DNA from: a bacterium
GTDB lineage: Bacteria > SAR324 > XYD2-FULL-50-16
Length of the DNA stretch: 64,000 bases
Assembly: GCA_024275165.1 (NCBI GenBank)
Contig: JAJRZQ010000025.1
Location: 62,001 to 126,000 of the forward strand
Direction: 5' to 3'
The translations under genes and the position numbers were made by a program. Under the pieces are notes generated by a model that saw nothing but the letters and a program-made list of their open reading frames with translations, was not told the DNA's origin and ran no database searches. Numbering within the stretch: position 1 is the first letter of the stretch; every line of letters starts with the position of its first letter. Shown here piece by piece: positions 9,760 to 32,585 of the stretch.

Positions 9760-10284
9760 CTATTTAAGGGCATTGTCTTGGAGTTCAAAGAGTTGTTCCA
9801 GTTGCTTGTCGCTCCGCTGTTCGCTGCTGAACCTCAAAATGACGGGCCGCACCAAGTCTAAATAATCTTGGGTCGAAAGCCGCAAGAGGTCGTTGAGATA
9901 ACCGGTGTTGCAGGTCATTTCAGCCTGCTTTGCCAAGGCCTCGGCCAAAAAGACCTTCATCCCCCAAAGGACCCCAAAGGGGGGGGAGGCCCCAACCTCG
10001 CAATCGGGAAAGCGGTACACGAATTCATCCTCTTTGACCAACTCCACCAGCTTAGCCCGGGCTCCTTTACGAATTTGTTCCAAGTCCGCCTGCATGGAGG
10101 CGGGCAACACCGCCATCACCAATTACCCATCAAGCCGCAAAATCAAGGTTTTAGCCAATGCCCGACCCGATACATGCGCCGCTTCGGCCACTTCTAAGGC
10201 CGTATAAGCGGGGGAATGCAGAATCAAGCGGTATTTAATGCCCTTTTTATCTAAAAAGCTTTTTAATTTTTCTACAATCATCAT
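9760..10284 (-). pseudogene. YbaK/ProX-type aminoacyl-tRNA deacylase, interrupted by in-frame TAA
   Basis: The family hydrolyses mischarged tRNAs (Cys- or Ala-tRNA(Pro)). The N-terminal part (10284 to 10126) starts after GGAGGT and reads [20 protein letters not shown], then [17 protein letters not shown], which includes the catalytic lysine region AKTL. A TAA at 10125-10123 then interrupts the frame. The same frame continues at once with LVMAVLPASMQADLE and runs to 9760, including DCEVGASPPFG, a typical region of this fold. The joined length (about 174 codons) is normal for the family. One base change (for example from AAA, GAA or CAA) explains the break. Either a recent nonsense mutation, a sequence error, or two separately translated pieces; a restart codon (TTG, GTG, ATG) follows directly. 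Confidence 0.85.
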
Positions 10285-10301
10285 ACCTCCAATTACAACT
10301 T

Positions 10302-10550
10302 CTAGCCCCACTTTTGGGCAAGGTAGTTGTAGATCAACGCAAAACAGAACCCCCCAACCAGAGCGTCGAGAAAAGCCCAAACCAGGCCGATTACACTGCC
10401 CAAGGGGCTGACTTGGTAACCAAGATAAAAATTTCCGACCCAGTTCAGGCTAAAATCGCCCTGCCACAGGGCGAGCCAGGTCAAAGTAAACAACCCCGCT
10501 CCCGCAAAGAGCCCACAGGTCAAACCAAAGGCTTTTGGATGGAGTTTCAT
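10302..10550 (-). CDS. Small membrane protein (holin-annotated family)
   Basis: 82 residues with two or three hydrophobic segments: [20 protein letters not shown], then a short periplasmic-type loop [13 protein letters not shown], then [20 protein letters not shown] and the end YNYLAQKWG. Similar short proteins with GY.VS..G...GL.WAF.D.....G..FA..YN are often labelled 'bacteriophage holin' in databases, but no phage context exists here and lysis is unlikely. GGAGGAACTC precedes the ATG. It lies 17 bases upstream of the deacylase gene on the same strand and may be cotranscribed with it. Real function unknown. Confidence 0.65.
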
Positions 10551-25748: not shown

Positions 25749-26141
25749 ATGAAATCAACCCTTCCCATTAGCAAAACCTTCGCATTTACAGGCCTTGTCG
25801 CTCTGTTACTGGCGTTTTTTTGCTTTGGGTGGCATTCTTTGCAAAGCTTCAGCAAACAGGGCGCCTATGCATACGCTGCCCCGCAAATGGCTCAAACCGC
25901 CCAACCTGGGGAGCATCACTCCGAGCAGGCGACTTGCTGTGCGAAAATCCAACATTCCGTCTTTTCTACCTTAACTCAAGTCGAATTGCGTTGGCCTAGC
26001 GCTGTTGGGGTAGGGGGGATGATTTTTTCTCTGCTCTTTTTTTCCTCTTCTTTTGTTTTCAAGGTTGCCCCCTGGTTATCGGTTCCCCCACCGATTTATG
26101 CCCAAGGGTTAGTGCGCCAAAAAATCCAGCTCAATCAATAA
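25749..26141 (+). CDS. Small membrane protein at head of Cus operon
   Basis: 130 residues, not recognised. It has an N-terminal hydrophobic segment (FAFTGLVALLLAFFCFGWHS, about 11-30), a short periplasmic stretch with His-His and Cys-Cys (GEHHSEQATCCAK, about 55-67), a second hydrophobic helix (VGVGGMIFSLLFFSSSFVF) and a C-terminal tail rich in Gln. Two helices with a central HH...CC motif resemble small copper-operon proteins such as those of the DUF2946 type, but the family is not confirmed. It sits right behind the operon promoter and 65 bases before the adaptor gene, so a role in metal sensing or binding is an inference. Confidence 0.6.
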   Translation: MKSTLPISKTFAFTGLVALLLAFFCFGWHSLQSFSKQGAYAYAAPQMAQTAQPGEHHSEQATCCAKIQHSVFSTLTQVELRWPSAVGVGGMIFSLLFFSSSFVFKVAPWLSVPPPIYAQGLVRQKIQLNQ

Positions 26142-26206: not shown

Positions 26207-27715
26207 ATGCGTCTACTTTTTACTCTATTTTTCTGTTTATTTTATGGGTTACCCCTCTGGGCAGAACCCAATGAGGTTTTTACCCAAAAGGGCTACCAAC
26301 TCAAGAACTTTGAACTCGATCCCAGCCCCGCGCAGGTTGGAGATTTGACCTGCTTTTTTGAGATATACGATAAAGAAGGCAACCCCTTAGAAGGGTTGGA
26401 TATCGAGGTTGAAATCTTCATGCCCGAAATGGGGACCATGCCCCGCATGGGCGCCGCTTACAAAGCGACCTCCATGGGTCAAGGCCGTTATGAGGTCGAG
26501 TTGGAAGTCGGGATGGGCGGGAGTTGGGAACTCCCCATCCGTATCCTGGACCAGGAAAAACAAATTATCGTCGCTTGGCCCTTCAGCTTTACGGTGGGGA
26601 CTCCCGGCATCATCTACAAGGGGCGTAGAGAAAAAAGCGCCTCCAACTCCGCCGAGGCGCAAGGCCCCACCATCTATTTAGCCGAGCCCCGCCGCCAGTT
26701 GATCGGGGTGGAGTTGGGCCAAGCGACCATGAAACCCATCAGCCGCAAGGTCCGCACCTTGGCGCGCATCGAAACCGCCGAGTCTCTAACCTTTGACCTG
26801 CAACTCAAATACGACGCCAACCTAGATAAACTCTACGCTGATCGGGAAGGGGAGTACATCACCAAGGGGCAACCTCTTTTTGAGGTCTATTCCGAAGAAC
26901 TCTACACCGCTCAAGACATCTACTTGGAACTCTTGCGAGGCAAACGAAAAAGCCGGATGGATAAACGGCTCTTGCAGTCTGCTAAGGATAAGCTTTTACT
27001 CATGGATTTAACCGAGGAAGAGATTCACAGCTTAGAAAAACGCAATCGCCCCCCCCGCCGCTGGCTGGTCAAAAGTCCGGTCTCCGGCTATTTGATGAGA
27101 AAGTACCAAGCCGAGGGCAGTTTTGCCAAAAAAGGACAGAATATCTTTCGCATTACGGAGCTGAAAAAGCTCTGGGCCTTAGCCGATGTCTTTGAATACG
27201 AATCTTGGATTGTCCATAAAAACGATCCCGTCATCTTGAGCCTCTCTTACAGGCAGGATATACAGATTCGGGGCCGAGTCGATTATGTTTATCCCTATAT
27301 GGAAGAAAAAACCCGCAGCATCAAGGTGCGAATCCTCTTGGAAAACCCGGATCTGGCCCTCAAACCAGGGATGTACGCCGATGCCCTGATCGAAAGCTAT
27401 TTGGGCGAACGGCTGGTGCTGCCCCGCCGCGCGGTTTTGTTTTCGGGGCAACATAAGTATGTCTTTGTCTCTTTGGGCGATGGGTACTTTGAGCCAAGGG
27501 AGATTGAAACGGGGGTGGAAGACGGCAATCTCTTTGAGGTAGTCAAGGGCTTGAAAGCCGGTGACTGGGTCAGTTTCTCGGCCAACTTTTTAATCAGCTC
27601 CGAGGCGCGACTGCAAAAGGCCCTGCCCCGTTGGGGGGCCCCGAAAGCGAAAAAGACCGAAATGGCCGAACCCATGCAGGGAATGGAGCATACCCCCTCT
27701 GAGGCCGCGCCATGA
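26207..27715 (+). CDS. cusB: CusB-like RND periplasmic adaptor with N-terminal YtkA-like domain
   Basis: Membrane-fusion protein that links an RND pump to an outer-membrane channel. 502 residues after GGAGGAGG, with a signal peptide (LLFTLFFCLFYGLPLWA). Residues about 25-130 form an extra beta-sandwich like YtkA/FixH domains (EIYDKEGNPLEGLDIEVEIF, MPEMGTMPRMG, YEVELEVGMGGSWELPI). The CusB part follows: RRQLIGVELGQATMKPISRK, GEYITKGQPLFEVYSEELYTAQ, a helical hairpin, SPVSGYLMRKYQAEGSFAKKG and the C-terminal VLPRRAVLFSG region. The Met-rich MPEMGTMPRMG may bind Cu(I). The stop overlaps cusA (ATGA). Confidence 0.9.
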   Translation: MRLLFTLFFCLFYGLPLWAEPNEVFTQKGYQLKNFELDPSPAQVGDLTCFFEIYDKEGNPLEGLDIEVEIFMPEMGTMPRMGAAYKATSMGQGRYEVELEVGMGGSWELPIRILDQEKQIIVAWPFSFTVGTPGIIYKGRREKSASNSAEAQGPTIYLAEPRRQLIGVELGQATMKPISRKVRTLARIETAESLTFDLQLKYDANLDKLYADREGEYITKGQPLFEVYSEELYTAQDIYLELLRGKRKSRMDKRLLQSAKDKLLLMDLTEEEIHSLEKRNRPPRRWLVKSPVSGYLMRKYQAEGSFAKKGQNIFRITELKKLWALADVFEYESWIVHKNDPVILSLSYRQDIQIRGRVDYVYPYMEEKTRSIKVRILLENPDLALKPGMYADALIESYLGERLVLPRRAVLFSGQHKYVFVSLGDGYFEPREIETGVEDGNLFEVVKGLKAGDWVSFSANFLISSEARLQKALPRWGAPKAKKTEMAEPMQGMEHTPSEAAP

Positions 27716-30700
27716 TTGAAAAAATTATTCATACCTCGGTTCGCCATTGGGTGGTGGTGATCTTCTTCTGCCTGCTGTTGGGTTGGACGAGCTGGCAGGC
27801 CATGAAGGCCACACCGCTGGACGCGCTGCCTGATTTATCCGATGTGCAGGTGATTGTCTATTCGGAGTGGACCGGGCAAAGTCCGGATCTGGTTGAGGAT
27901 CAAGTCACCTATCCCTTGGTCACCGCCTTGATGGGGGCGCCCAAGGTGCGCTATGTGCGGGGGCAGAGCTTTTTTGGCTTAAGCTTCGTCAATGTGATCT
28001 TTGAAGAGGGGACCGACCTCTATTGGGGCCGGACCCGGGTCTTGGAATACCTCTCCTCGATTCGCGCCGAACTGCCCCCGGGGGTCAACCCCGAGCTGGG
28101 GCCCGATGCCACCGGAGTGGGCTGGATTTATCAATACGCCTTGAAGGATACCTCGGGCAAACGCAGTCTGGCCGATTTGCGGAGCTTGCAGGACTGGGTG
28201 ATCCGTTACGATTTAAAAGGCCTCTCTGGAGTGGCCGAGGTCGCCAGCCTGGGGGGCTTTATCCGCCAGTATCAGGTGGAAATCGACCCCATCAAGTTGC
28301 GGGCCTATGACATCTCCATCGCCCAAGTGGTCAAGGCGGTGCAAAGCTCCAACCGGGATATGGGAGCCAAAATCTTGGAGGTTTCGGGTACCGAGCATTT
28401 CATCCGGGGAAGGGGCTATGTCAAGACCCCCGAAGACTTAGAAGTCATCCCCGTGGGGGAGTTTCAAGGCACCCCGATCTTTTTGCGGGAATTGGGACGG
28501 GTCACCTTAGGGCCCGCCATGCGCAGGGGCGCCGCTGACTTGGATGGATTAGGGGAAGCCGTGGGTGGAATCGTGGTCATGCGCTGGGGGGGAGACGCGA
28601 GAAAAATCCTCCAAAGCGTCAAGGACAAACTCACAGAGGTGCAAAAAAGCCTGCCCGAAGGGGTGGAGATCATCCCCGTCTATGACCGGAGCGAACTGAT
28701 CGACGAGGCGATTGAAAACCTGATGCACAAGCTTATCGAAGAGGTTGTCATCGTCTCCTTGGTGGTGATTTTGTTCCTCTGGCATTTCAAAAGCGCTTTA
28801 ATCGCCATCATCCCCTTGCCTTTGGCCATCATGGCAAGCTTCATCCCCTTAAGCGCCAGCGGGCTCAACGCCAATATCATGAGCCTCTCAGGAATCGCCA
28901 TCGCCATTGGGGCCATGATCGACGCCAGCATTATCTTGGTGGAAAACGCCCATAAAAAATTGGAGAAATGGGAAGAGACGGGCCGGAAGGAGGCCCGCAT
29001 CTAGGTGATTGCCAAAGCCATGGCCGAGATGGGGCGCCCTCTTTTTTTCGCCCTCTTGGTGATTACGGTAAGCTTTCTTCCCATCTTTGCCCTCACCGGG
29101 CAAGAGGGGAAGCTCTTTAAACCCTTGGCCTGGACCAAAACCTTTTCCATGGCTTGGGCCGCCATTTTGGCTATCACCCTGACCCCGGCCTTGGCCGTGC
29201 CCTTTTTGCGCGGCAAAATGCCCACCGAAGAACACCATCCTTTGAGCAAAATACTGCGGGCCGCTTATTTACCGGCTTGCAATTGGGCTTTGGAGCATAA
29301 GAAAACGGTCTTGATATTGGCCTTGCTCATGGTGTCTTCCATTCCCATCATTGCCGGCCGTTTGGGCAGCGAGTTCATGCCGCCCTTAAACGAGGGAACT
29401 CTGTTGTACATGCCCACGGCGGTGCCGGGCATGAGCATGGATGAAGGGATTGATGTGGCCCACCGCATCGGAGCCCGCATCATGACCGTGCCCGAGGTCA
29501 AACATGTCATGACCAAAGTGGGCCGGGCCGACAGCGCTACCGATGCCGCGCCCCTTTCCATGATCGAGGCGGTGATCAGTTTCAAGCCAACCGATGAGTG
29601 GCGCGAGGGCATGGATATGCCGAAACTCATCTCGGAACTGGATCAAACCAGCCAGATCCCCGGGATGCCCAACATCTGGTGGATGCCCATCCAAACCCGT
29701 ACCGAAATGTTGGCTACGGGAATCCGTTCCGCCATTGGGATCAAAGTTTTAGGGGCAGACTTGGCTCAGATCGAAGAGGTCGGGAAAAACATCGAAACCC
29801 TACTCAAAGACACCAAAGGAACCCGCAGTGTTTTTGCGGAACGCAGCACCGGCGGTTATTTTATTGATTTTGACATTGACCGCAAAGCCATCGCTCGTTA
29901 CGGCCTGACCGTGGGAGAGGTCTTAGACGCCCTTTCGGTCGCCATCGGCGGCAAAGAAATCGGTAAGGTAATCTTGGGTCGAGAACGCTACCCCATCCAG
30001 ATTCGCTACCAACGAGATTCGAGGTCCAACCTCCCTGACCTGTTGCAGGTTTTGGTTCCCACGCCTAAAGGAATACAAATTCCCTTGGCCCACCTGGCTC
30101 AAATGAAGGTCAAAACCGGCCCTCCCATGATTCGCGACGAAAACGGGAGGTTGGCGAGCTTCGTTTTTGTGGAGATCAACGGGGAAGTCAGCCTAGGCGA
30201 CTATGTGAGCCACGCTAAGGAGGTACTCGATCAAAACCTCACCCTTCCCGTAGGCGTAAGTTTGGTTTGGGCGGGGCAGTACGAACATATGTCCAGGGCT
30301 TGGGATAGTTTAAAACTCTTGATCCCCGTTACCTTTGCCTTGATTTTTCTTTTGATCTTTTTCAACACCGGGAGCGCTATTGAGACGGCAATCGTTTTAT
30401 TGGCGGTTCCCTTTAGCTTGATCGGAGCCTTTTGGCTTTTATGGATTTTAGGTTACAACCTCTCCATCGCCGTTTGGGTCGGGGTCATCGCGCTCGCGGG
30501 CCTGGACGCTGAAACGGGAGTGGTCATGCTGTTATACCTCAAGCAAAGCTATACCCAATGGCAAGCTGAAGGCAAGATGCGTAACCTGAAGGATCTGCAT
30601 GGCGCCATCATCGAGGGGGCGGTGCAGCGCATCCGCCCCAAAATGATGACCGCCGGAGCCATGCTGATCGGCCTCTTGCCCATTATGTGGGCAGGCGGTG

Positions 30701-30849
30701 TCGGGAGTCAGGCCATGAAACGAATCGCCGCCCCCATGGTGGGGGGAATCGTGACCAGTGTGGCTTTGGAACTCTTAATCTACCCGGTGATCTTTTCTCT
30801 TTGGAAAGGTCGCAAATTTAAAAAACCTCTTCTTGTGGAGAAAAAATGA
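27712..30849 (+). pseudogene. cusA: CusA-type heavy-metal RND pump, interrupted by in-frame TAG
   Basis: Inner-membrane proton-driven Cu(I)/Ag(I) exporter. Together, the frame covers 1045 codons, the normal CusA length. The N-terminal part (27712-29001, 430 residues) ends in the cytoplasmic loop after helix 4, which carries the proton-relay Asp of GAMIDASIILVENAH (about Asp404). A TAG at 29002-29004 then stops the frame, which continues with VIAKAMAEMGRPLFFALLVI to 30849. E. coli CusA has Gln at about this place, so a CAG-to-TAG change is likely. Substrate methionines of the Cus type are seen in APLSMIEA and TEMLATG. An AAGGAGG lies 11 bases before a GTG right after the TAG, so a separate C-terminal half (614 residues) might be made. 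Pseudogene, split pump, readthrough or sequencing error remain open. Confidence 0.88.
28987..29007 (+). promoter_or_regulatory. Shine-Dalgarno and GTG restart at the cusA break
   Basis: A perfect AAGGAGG (28987-28993) is followed after 11 bases, which include the TAG at 29002-29004, by GTG-ATT-GCC. The bases also encode GRKEARI, so the match could be chance, but it would allow re-initiation of the second half of the pump. Confidence 0.35.
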
Positions 30850-31319
30850 AAATCTTAATCTCAATCCTCTTAATCGCCTTGTTGCCTTTCTTTGCCTTTG
30901 CTGGAGCCCCCAATCACTCGGAAATGGGGCATTCCAAGATGGGGCACAAGGAGATGGGGCATGCGGATCATGCCAAAATGGTTACTTTAAAAAAAGCGAA
31001 AAAACCAAGCCGCAAAAGCAAAAAAGGGCATTTTCTGCTGACCCTGCCTGAGATTCCTACCGCGCCGGGCCTGGCCCACCTCAACTTAGCCTTGAGCCAT
31101 GCTGACGGCAAACCGATCAGCAACCAAGCGAAGCTGAGCATTACCCAAAAAATGCCGGGCATGGAAATGGACCTAACCCCCGTAAAAATCACCCCTAAAG
31201 GAGCAGGAGAATACGCCTTAGAAGTTCATTTGCCCATGCCCGGTTTTTGGAAACTTCAAGTTCAGATCACCGATGGCCCGGTCCAAGACCAGGGAACCCT
31301 AAAAATCATTCTACCCTAG
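30846..31319 (+). CDS. Met/His-rich periplasmic YtkA-like protein
   Basis: 157 residues with a signal peptide (MKILISILLIALLPFFAFA). The mature N-terminus carries a metal-binding repeat: HSEMGHSKMGHKEMGHADHA (about residues 24-43), three MGH units. The C-terminal half is a YtkA-like beta-sandwich (LALSHADGKPISNQAKLSIT, QKMPGMEMDLTP, GEYALEVHLPMPGFWKLQVQ). It stands where CusF, the periplasmic copper chaperone, stands in other Cus operons, so it probably delivers Cu(I) or Ag(I) to the pump. The domain resembles the extra N-terminal domain of the adjacent adaptor. It overlaps the cusA stop by 4 bases. Confidence 0.75.
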   Translation: MKILISILLIALLPFFAFAGAPNHSEMGHSKMGHKEMGHADHAKMVTLKKAKKPSRKSKKGHFLLTLPEIPTAPGLAHLNLALSHADGKPISNQAKLSITQKMPGMEMDLTPVKITPKGAGEYALEVHLPMPGFWKLQVQITDGPVQDQGTLKIILP

Positions 31320-31328
31320 AGAGGTCTT

Positions 31329-32585
31329 TTGAAACCCGTTGCTTTATTTTTGCTGCTCCTTTGTTTTGGAGCGCAATTTGTCGAGGCTGAAGAGACCGCG
31401 CCAACACCCCTAAAAAAACTGCTTGATCAAGCGATGAAGCAAAATCCCAGTTTAGCGGAGGCGCGCCTATCGAGCGAGCAAGGGCAGGTGGGCTATGAGG
31501 GGGCGGCGGCCTGGGCGCCGCCTCGACTCAGCGTAACCCAACTCTCCCAACCAATGGAAACGAGCATGGGGCTGCAAACTCGAACCTACAGCCTAACCCA
31601 ACCCGTGCCCTTTCCCGGTTCGGGCTGGTTGCTGGAAGACATTGCCCAAGCCAAGACCGAAGCCTTACAGCACCAAGAAGAATGGACAAAACGCCGGATC
31701 ATCGCTGAGGTGAAATCGGTTTATTACGACCTCTGGCAGTTGCAGGCTACCCCTGAATTGATTGAGGAAAACGAACAGATATCCGAAAAAATCGGGATTT
31801 TAGGCGGCCTGGAGCGCAGGGTAGAAACCCTAAAAGTCGTACTCACCGCGCAAGCGAAATTAGGAGAAAACGGAAAAATACTCTTTGACTTGGAACAAAA
31901 AGCCTTAGCGGCAAGGTATCATTTGAGTCACCTTTTAGGCCAAGGGAGTAAACTCTGGAACGGCAAGGTTCAAGACCCGGGGTTACCGGAACTCAAAACA
32001 AGCTTAAGCAAACTGCTCGCCGCTGCCCGGGATTACTTCCCCCGTTTGCGGGCGCAAGACAAAAAAGCTCAGGCCGCAAAGGCGCAAGCTCGTTACCATG
32101 AATACCAAGCCTGGGTGCCTGAGTTTTCATTTGGTTTAAACTACACCCAAAACGACCCCTTAAGCGATGGAACCAAGGGGCAGAACTCAACCAGCCTCAG
32201 CTTAGGGATGAGCCTACCCTTTGGCAATGGAGAGATCGGAACCAAGAAAAGACAAGCGCAACTAGAAGAGGAAAAACAACAACTCCAATACGAGGAAGAA
32301 AGCAACCAATTGGAAGCCGATTTAGCCCAAGCTTATGCCCAGGCCCAACAAGCTTATAAATTGGTCGCCCTTTATCAAGAAGAATTGTTGCCCCCGGCGC
32401 GCCAGCAAATCTCCATCGCGCAACGAATGTATAAAACCGGTAAAAGCGGGGCCATTGAAGCCTTAGCCGCGAGCGCCCAAATGATCGGGCTCAAGGTCGG
32501 CGAACTCCAGGCAAAAAGTGATTACCTTAAATCCTTAGTTCGCTTAGAACTCTTTACGGGGCTCATCCTTACTGAATCTGAATGA
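31329..32585 (+). CDS. TolC/CusC-like outer-membrane efflux channel
   Basis: 418 residues from a TTG start supported by GAGAGG five bases upstream. Signal peptide (PVALFLLLLCFGAQFVEA), then an OEP-type helical barrel: LLDQAMKQNPSLAEARLSSE, long helical regions with many Gln/Ala/Glu, and YKLVALYQEELLPPARQQIS with QRMYKTGKSGAIE, the family's second-repeat motif. It should form the exit duct of the Cus pump. It is the last gene of the operon and overlaps the SPOR gene on the other strand by 17 bases. Confidence 0.88.
   Translation: MKPVALFLLLLCFGAQFVEAEETAPTPLKKLLDQAMKQNPSLAEARLSSEQGQVGYEGAAAWAPPRLSVTQLSQPMETSMGLQTRTYSLTQPVPFPGSGWLLEDIAQAKTEALQHQEEWTKRRIIAEVKSVYYDLWQLQATPELIEENEQISEKIGILGGLERRVETLKVVLTAQAKLGENGKILFDLEQKALAARYHLSHLLGQGSKLWNGKVQDPGLPELKTSLSKLLAAARDYFPRLRAQDKKAQAAKAQARYHEYQAWVPEFSFGLNYTQNDPLSDGTKGQNSTSLSLGMSLPFGNGEIGTKKRQAQLEEEKQQLQYEEESNQLEADLAQAYAQAQQAYKLVALYQEELLPPARQQISIAQRMYKTGKSGAIEALAASAQMIGLKVGELQAKSDYLKSLVRLELFTGLILTESE

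Follow-up and report, generated by a model that had tools for sequence, protein, structure and literature searches.

Within the window, that is, the whole stretch of 64,000 nucleotides that was analysed, an operon in the order cusB-cusA-ytkA-cusC is found, and the pump gene at the locus, a heavy-metal RND gene of the CusA type, is an ordinary one. A 130-residue open reading frame (25749–26141, +), to which no family was assigned, precedes cusB (26207–27715, +), which encodes a CusB-type periplasmic adaptor (HlyD_D23) with a YtkA-like domain at its N-terminus; a YtkA match in the cusB region also occurs in two other genomes, G002 and G013. Downstream of cusA lie the gene of a YtkA-like protein (30846–31319, +), which overlaps the cusA stop in the sequence ATGA, and that of a CusC/TolC-type outer membrane factor (OEP; 31329–32585, +). 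It had been predicted that the members of the operon other than cusA are intact and, indeed, the CusB, YtkA-like and CusC-type genes are all uncut. The same order, with identical start and stop overlaps, surrounds the nearest intact CusA gene (genome G004), which is 70% identical. The E. coli CusA operon likewise has adaptor and outer membrane factor genes, and the locus here differs from it in the YtkA-like genes.

The cusA frame itself (27712–30849, +) comprises 1045 codons and is interrupted once, by a TAG at 29002–29004 (+). The N-terminal part (27712–29004, +) begins with the ATG at 27712 and runs for 430 codons plus the TAG, covering TM1–TM4 and the first periplasmic domain. The C-terminal part (29005–30849, +) has 614 codons from a GTG, ends with the TGA at 30847–30849 in the same frame, and covers TM5–TM12. 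On the basis of hydrophobicity and of knowledge of the RND fold, the TAG is placed in the cytoplasmic loop that connects TM4 with TM5, and by alignment it stands at the position of Gln437 in E. coli CusA. The claim that the frame is open on either side of the TAG is borne out by consecutive profile matches, to positions 2–422 and 424–1019 of PF00873, and to positions 1–427 (504 bits) and 441–1040 (588 bits) of TIGR00914, although neither half reaches by itself the whole-protein cut-off of 701 of the latter model. Taken together, the two parts match TIGR00914 collinearly and in full length, as expected for the CusA/CzcA family; the one uninterrupted reading frame that is also expected is, in the sequence as given, broken at 29002–29004. 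Apart from the TAG, no further lesion was found in cusA. In a comparison with relatives that addressed constraint on the C-terminal part, pN was similar in both parts, with dS saturated.

E. coli CusA, a member of the HME-RND group (TIGR00914; PDB 3k07/3t51), gives a full-length, collinear match of 1030 bits to cusA, the difference being the TAG that interrupts the present frame at the Q437 position. Residues D405, E939, K984, and T987 of CusA form the proton relay, and M573, M623, and M672, with E625, the Cu(I)/Ag(I) site (PMC8092243). The relay residues align with D, E, K, and T in cusA, and all four residues of the metal site are kept; the equivalent of D405 is in the first part, and those of the Met triad, E625, E939, K984, and T987 are in the second. 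The transmembrane pair M410–M501 of the E. coli protein is Leu/Ala here.

Initiation signals at the break and the TAG column in relatives

The original prediction had pointed to an AAGGAGG before the TAG and a GTG directly behind it, and both are present. The AAGGAGG (28987–28993, +), Shine-Dalgarno-like and also read as the codons Lys-Glu, lies 11 nt before the GTG (29005–29007, +). Its pairing with the anti-Shine-Dalgarno sequence amounts to −11.7 kcal/mol, the best value among the in-frame starts of cusA. This would suit a genuine two-piece RND pump, in which TM1–TM4 and TM5–TM12 would be made as separate chains by termination and reinitiation at the GTG. The functional residues are kept in both parts, and the cut falls in a cytoplasmic loop that tolerates changes of length in relatives: between TM4 and TM5, L161 (G034) and L053 (Methylobacter marinus) carry insertions of some 26 to 33 residues. 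Nevertheless, we regard such a pump as very unlikely. Of the three intact genes nearest to cusA, two (those of G004 and G002) already have the GTG, as a plain Val codon, the AAGGAGG is not kept in relatives, and a spacing of 11 nt is long. In addition, the genes of the window contain 4364 codons that a single base change would turn into a stop, and 1.4% of these have an in-frame start in their vicinity whose Shine-Dalgarno reaches −10 kcal/mol or better; because of this chance level the combination at the break is unusual yet not remarkable.

The host is related to Candidatus Lambdaproteobacteria, and its nearest CusA, that of G004, matches RIFOXYD2_FULL_50_16 (Candidatus Lambdaproteobacteria; L010/L029) in identity, span, and site context. 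The search gave 51 genomes related at the level of class or more closely, but none at that of genus. No cut is seen in the three nearest CusA genes (70, 68, and 65% identical), in which the column of the TAG holds Glu, Thr, and Glu, respectively; the first of them, unlike cusA here, has neither the stop nor the AAGGAGG. An alignment of 105 relatives across the site shows no stop at this column. Gln, earlier taken as the family residue, is correct for E. coli CusA (Q437), but the column is variable, with E (19), D (19), A (14), R (12), T (7), Q (7), and others among 90 relatives.

A search of related genomes for split CusA pairs, the check that accompanied the original prediction, was carried out and returned none at the TM4–TM5 loop. 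It covered 58 relatives, 80 loci, and 291 further genomes of another phylum, about 350 genomes in all, and brought up no split CusA. With the GTG ordinary in relatives, the AAGGAGG unconserved, and the split absent, the idea of a two-piece pump finds no support. The CusA-like frames listed in the 291 genomes of the other phylum have no internal stop, with the exception of G252, whose gene is broken near residue 750 by a TGA, together with a frameshift; in G139, a TAG is at the normal end of the gene. An internal TAA is present at residue 375 of the query in the CusA of L069 (Nitrospirales NPIRA01) and, together with G252, this puts broken CusA-like genes at about 1% elsewhere. A plasmid search gave 3507 records with a match; among the 60 matches listed, nearly all are in one piece (mostly SilA/CusA), and two records, H53 and H60, have two-piece matches without annotation. 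No literature on split RND pumps was found.

Single in-frame stops in other genes of the assembly

A second case first came to light when response-regulator domains were scanned: a REC-REC-HD-GYP-like gene has an in-frame TAG. Stops flanked on either side by coding-like sequence of one frame were then collected, and the candidates were judged by eye. By this list, chosen partly by eye, a single in-frame stop cuts each of at least 18 genes, counting cusA, in the roughly 828 kb sampled of the genome. Twelve come from a scan of 435 kb: cusA, rplE, bioA, argD, and the genes for a YbaK-like protein, a TPR protein, an MlaD/MCE protein, the response regulator, a LysR regulator, an M28-like peptidase, an ABC permease, and an ArsR/rhodanese protein. 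At least six more come from a further 393 kb: leuA and the genes for a nitrite/sulfite reductase, an aldo-keto reductase, an HTH-like protein, a TPR protein, and a flagellar protein (the M28, HTH, and flagellar names come from reading the sequence only).

The YbaK/aminoacyl-tRNA editing gene is in the window (frame 9763–10311, −), with a TAA at 10123–10125 and halves that match PF04073 at positions 1–28 and 35–123. In rplE, a TAG follows 58 codons (G000:C15:16412-16414, −; L168 16412-16414). The sites in the 15 genes beyond cusA, rplE, and the YbaK-like gene, bioA, argD, and leuA among them, are at C41 60902, 63533, 27820, 8327, and 96950; C14 44810 and 38117; C15 37183; C22 46720; C47 192764, 153526, and 34762; and C16 124874, 156287, and 139562. 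Family models match across the stop in L5 (positions 3–57 and 61–180), BioA (1–63 and 65–418), acetylornithine transaminase, ArgD (5–83 and 88–393), and LeuA (3–193 and 197–444), and solved homologues align across the stop for LeuA, BioA, ArgD, the nitrite reductase, and the aldo-keto reductase.

These genes resemble cusA in that one in-frame stop interrupts a frame that is open apart from it. They differ from it in that TAA and TGA occur as well as TAG, and in that none of the other 17 combines a strong Shine-Dalgarno with a start codon following its stop. The chance of finding one such site in 18 genes is 22%, and this also argues against two separately initiated halves of the pump. Over the 18 genes, the stops are 7 TAG, 10 TAA, and 1 TGA, which fits uniform substitutions (chi-square p 0.32). 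The rplE gene, with its one TAG, is present in a single copy, and its counterparts in 13 relatives show no cut. Since E. coli cannot do without L5, the cut in rplE cannot be a tolerated loss.

When G004 was scanned in the same way by eye over 391 kb, gene junctions were seen and no clear cut gene; the contrast of 12 cut genes with 0 or 1 has a p of 0.0006 or 0.004. In a comparison of orthologues restricted to filtered genes, 4 of 86 are cut here versus 0 of 92 in G004 (Fisher p 0.053), frameshifts are seen in neither genome, and the four cut genes aligned to G004 show no other lesion. Two points count against sequence error: the implied substitution rate, about 7e-4 per base, is high, and the assembly, in 47 contigs of which several exceed 140 kb, is contiguous, which speaks against very low coverage. 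Residues that are odd for invariant columns of ribosomal proteins number 19 of 1585 here, not clearly more than the 16 in G004 and 13 in G002, although about 2 would be expected; these columns neither support nor exclude sequence error. With regard to G-to-T damage as a candidate sole cause, the codons of relatives are compatible with it in cusA and bioA, no such fit was established in the other genes, and no excess of G-to-T is seen in the ribosomal proteins. An S7 ending in HYMW was also taken up as a candidate base error and was dropped, the same ending being present in G004 and G003.

Decoding, mutation, or base calls

Might the stops be read through? The TAG in the response-regulator gene had brought up pyrrolysine or suppressor decoding of TAG, which was rejected: pyrrolysyl-tRNA synthetase was not found in the genome (PylS 20 bits, cut-off 178), nor was MttB or a stop-reading tRNA, all 42 of the tRNA genes found carrying sense anticodons, and the other genes are cut by TAA and TGA too. 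Both RF1 and RF2 are present and are uncut in the stretch examined. TAG, TAA, and TGA all end normal genes in the genome, and TAG terminates 9 of the 51 main open reading frames in the list for the window (a figure that includes the cut cusA). Given the sense-only tRNAs, the two release factors, the missing PylS and MttB, and the normal use of TAG as a terminator, a TAG-specific change of the code is excluded as far as these tools reach and is unlikely, in agreement with the original prediction, which had judged it so from the use of TAG as a stop elsewhere.

A broader readthrough, in which cusA, rplE, and the other cut genes would be translated in full, is suggested by an in-frame TAG within an essential gene, by the variable positions at which the stops fall in cusA and rplE, and by the lack of other lesions in the four genes aligned to G004. 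That all three stop codons are involved, that each of them terminates normal genes, and that release factors are present and stop-reading tRNAs are not, make it very unlikely. The most far-reaching form of this idea, in which dozens of genes, rplE and cusA among them, would be translated across in-frame TAG, TAA, and perhaps TGA with no dedicated suppressor tRNA, is likewise very unlikely. Were the stops real and translated, they would mean a broad tolerance of stop codons, and we know of no bacterium with tolerance of this kind.

A real and recent nonsense mutation deserves more weight. By this explanation, cusA would be a young pseudogene, tolerated by virtue of a second CusC-CusB-CusA cluster in the genome (G000:C16:57000-63104; L155). 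The paralogue in that cluster (C16:60000-63104) is uncut, full-length, and 48% identical, and adjoins CusB- and CusC-like genes. A single step separates the TAG from the codon that the nearest relative has here, and CusA-like genes are occasionally broken elsewhere, as described above. However, the rest of cusA and the other members of the operon are intact, and a mutation in cusA leaves unexplained the many other single stops, above all that in the single-copy rplE, as well as the absence of frameshifts. We thus consider it rather unlikely. A further point against sequence error is that several of the cut genes (bioA, argD, and leuA) can be spared where nutrients are rich, so that their loss could be real.

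The missing frameshifts, the mix of stops, and the cut in rplE point instead to substitution errors or template damage. It is therefore probable, in our judgment, that the TAG in cusA is one of many consensus errors, or sites of template base damage, in the assembly, and that it is not the junction of a two-piece pump. Sequence error was the last named of the four options in the original prediction, and it is favoured by the at least 17 other cut genes, while the split pump drew no support; comparable lesions recur over unrelated genes, with all three stops and an essential gene among them, and it is this recurrence that places the error ahead. Single-base nonsense calls scattered over the assembly would then stem from errors in the consensus or from damaged bases in the template DNA, and the TAG in cusA would belong to this genome-wide set. 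That the calls are wrong we infer, rather than observe, from the impossibility of losing L5, the unrelated nature of the genes cut, and the likeness of the stop types to random substitutions. Since the TAG is most likely one of many erroneous base calls, the cell most likely makes the full-length pump, and the stop in cusA, as found, is most likely not a real feature. The main value of the case is as a caution: a local story made of a stop, a Shine-Dalgarno, a start codon, and a helix boundary dissolves at genome scale.

Two tRNA genes of the same genome are odd. One is a tRNA-Arg (G000:C1:1939-2012; L131) with the predicted anticodon GCG, where the bacterial tRNA-Arg anticodon is usually ACG; the other is a second tRNA-Cys (G000:C44:4400-4470; L149), of low score and with an odd T-loop. 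Both are possibly further base errors.
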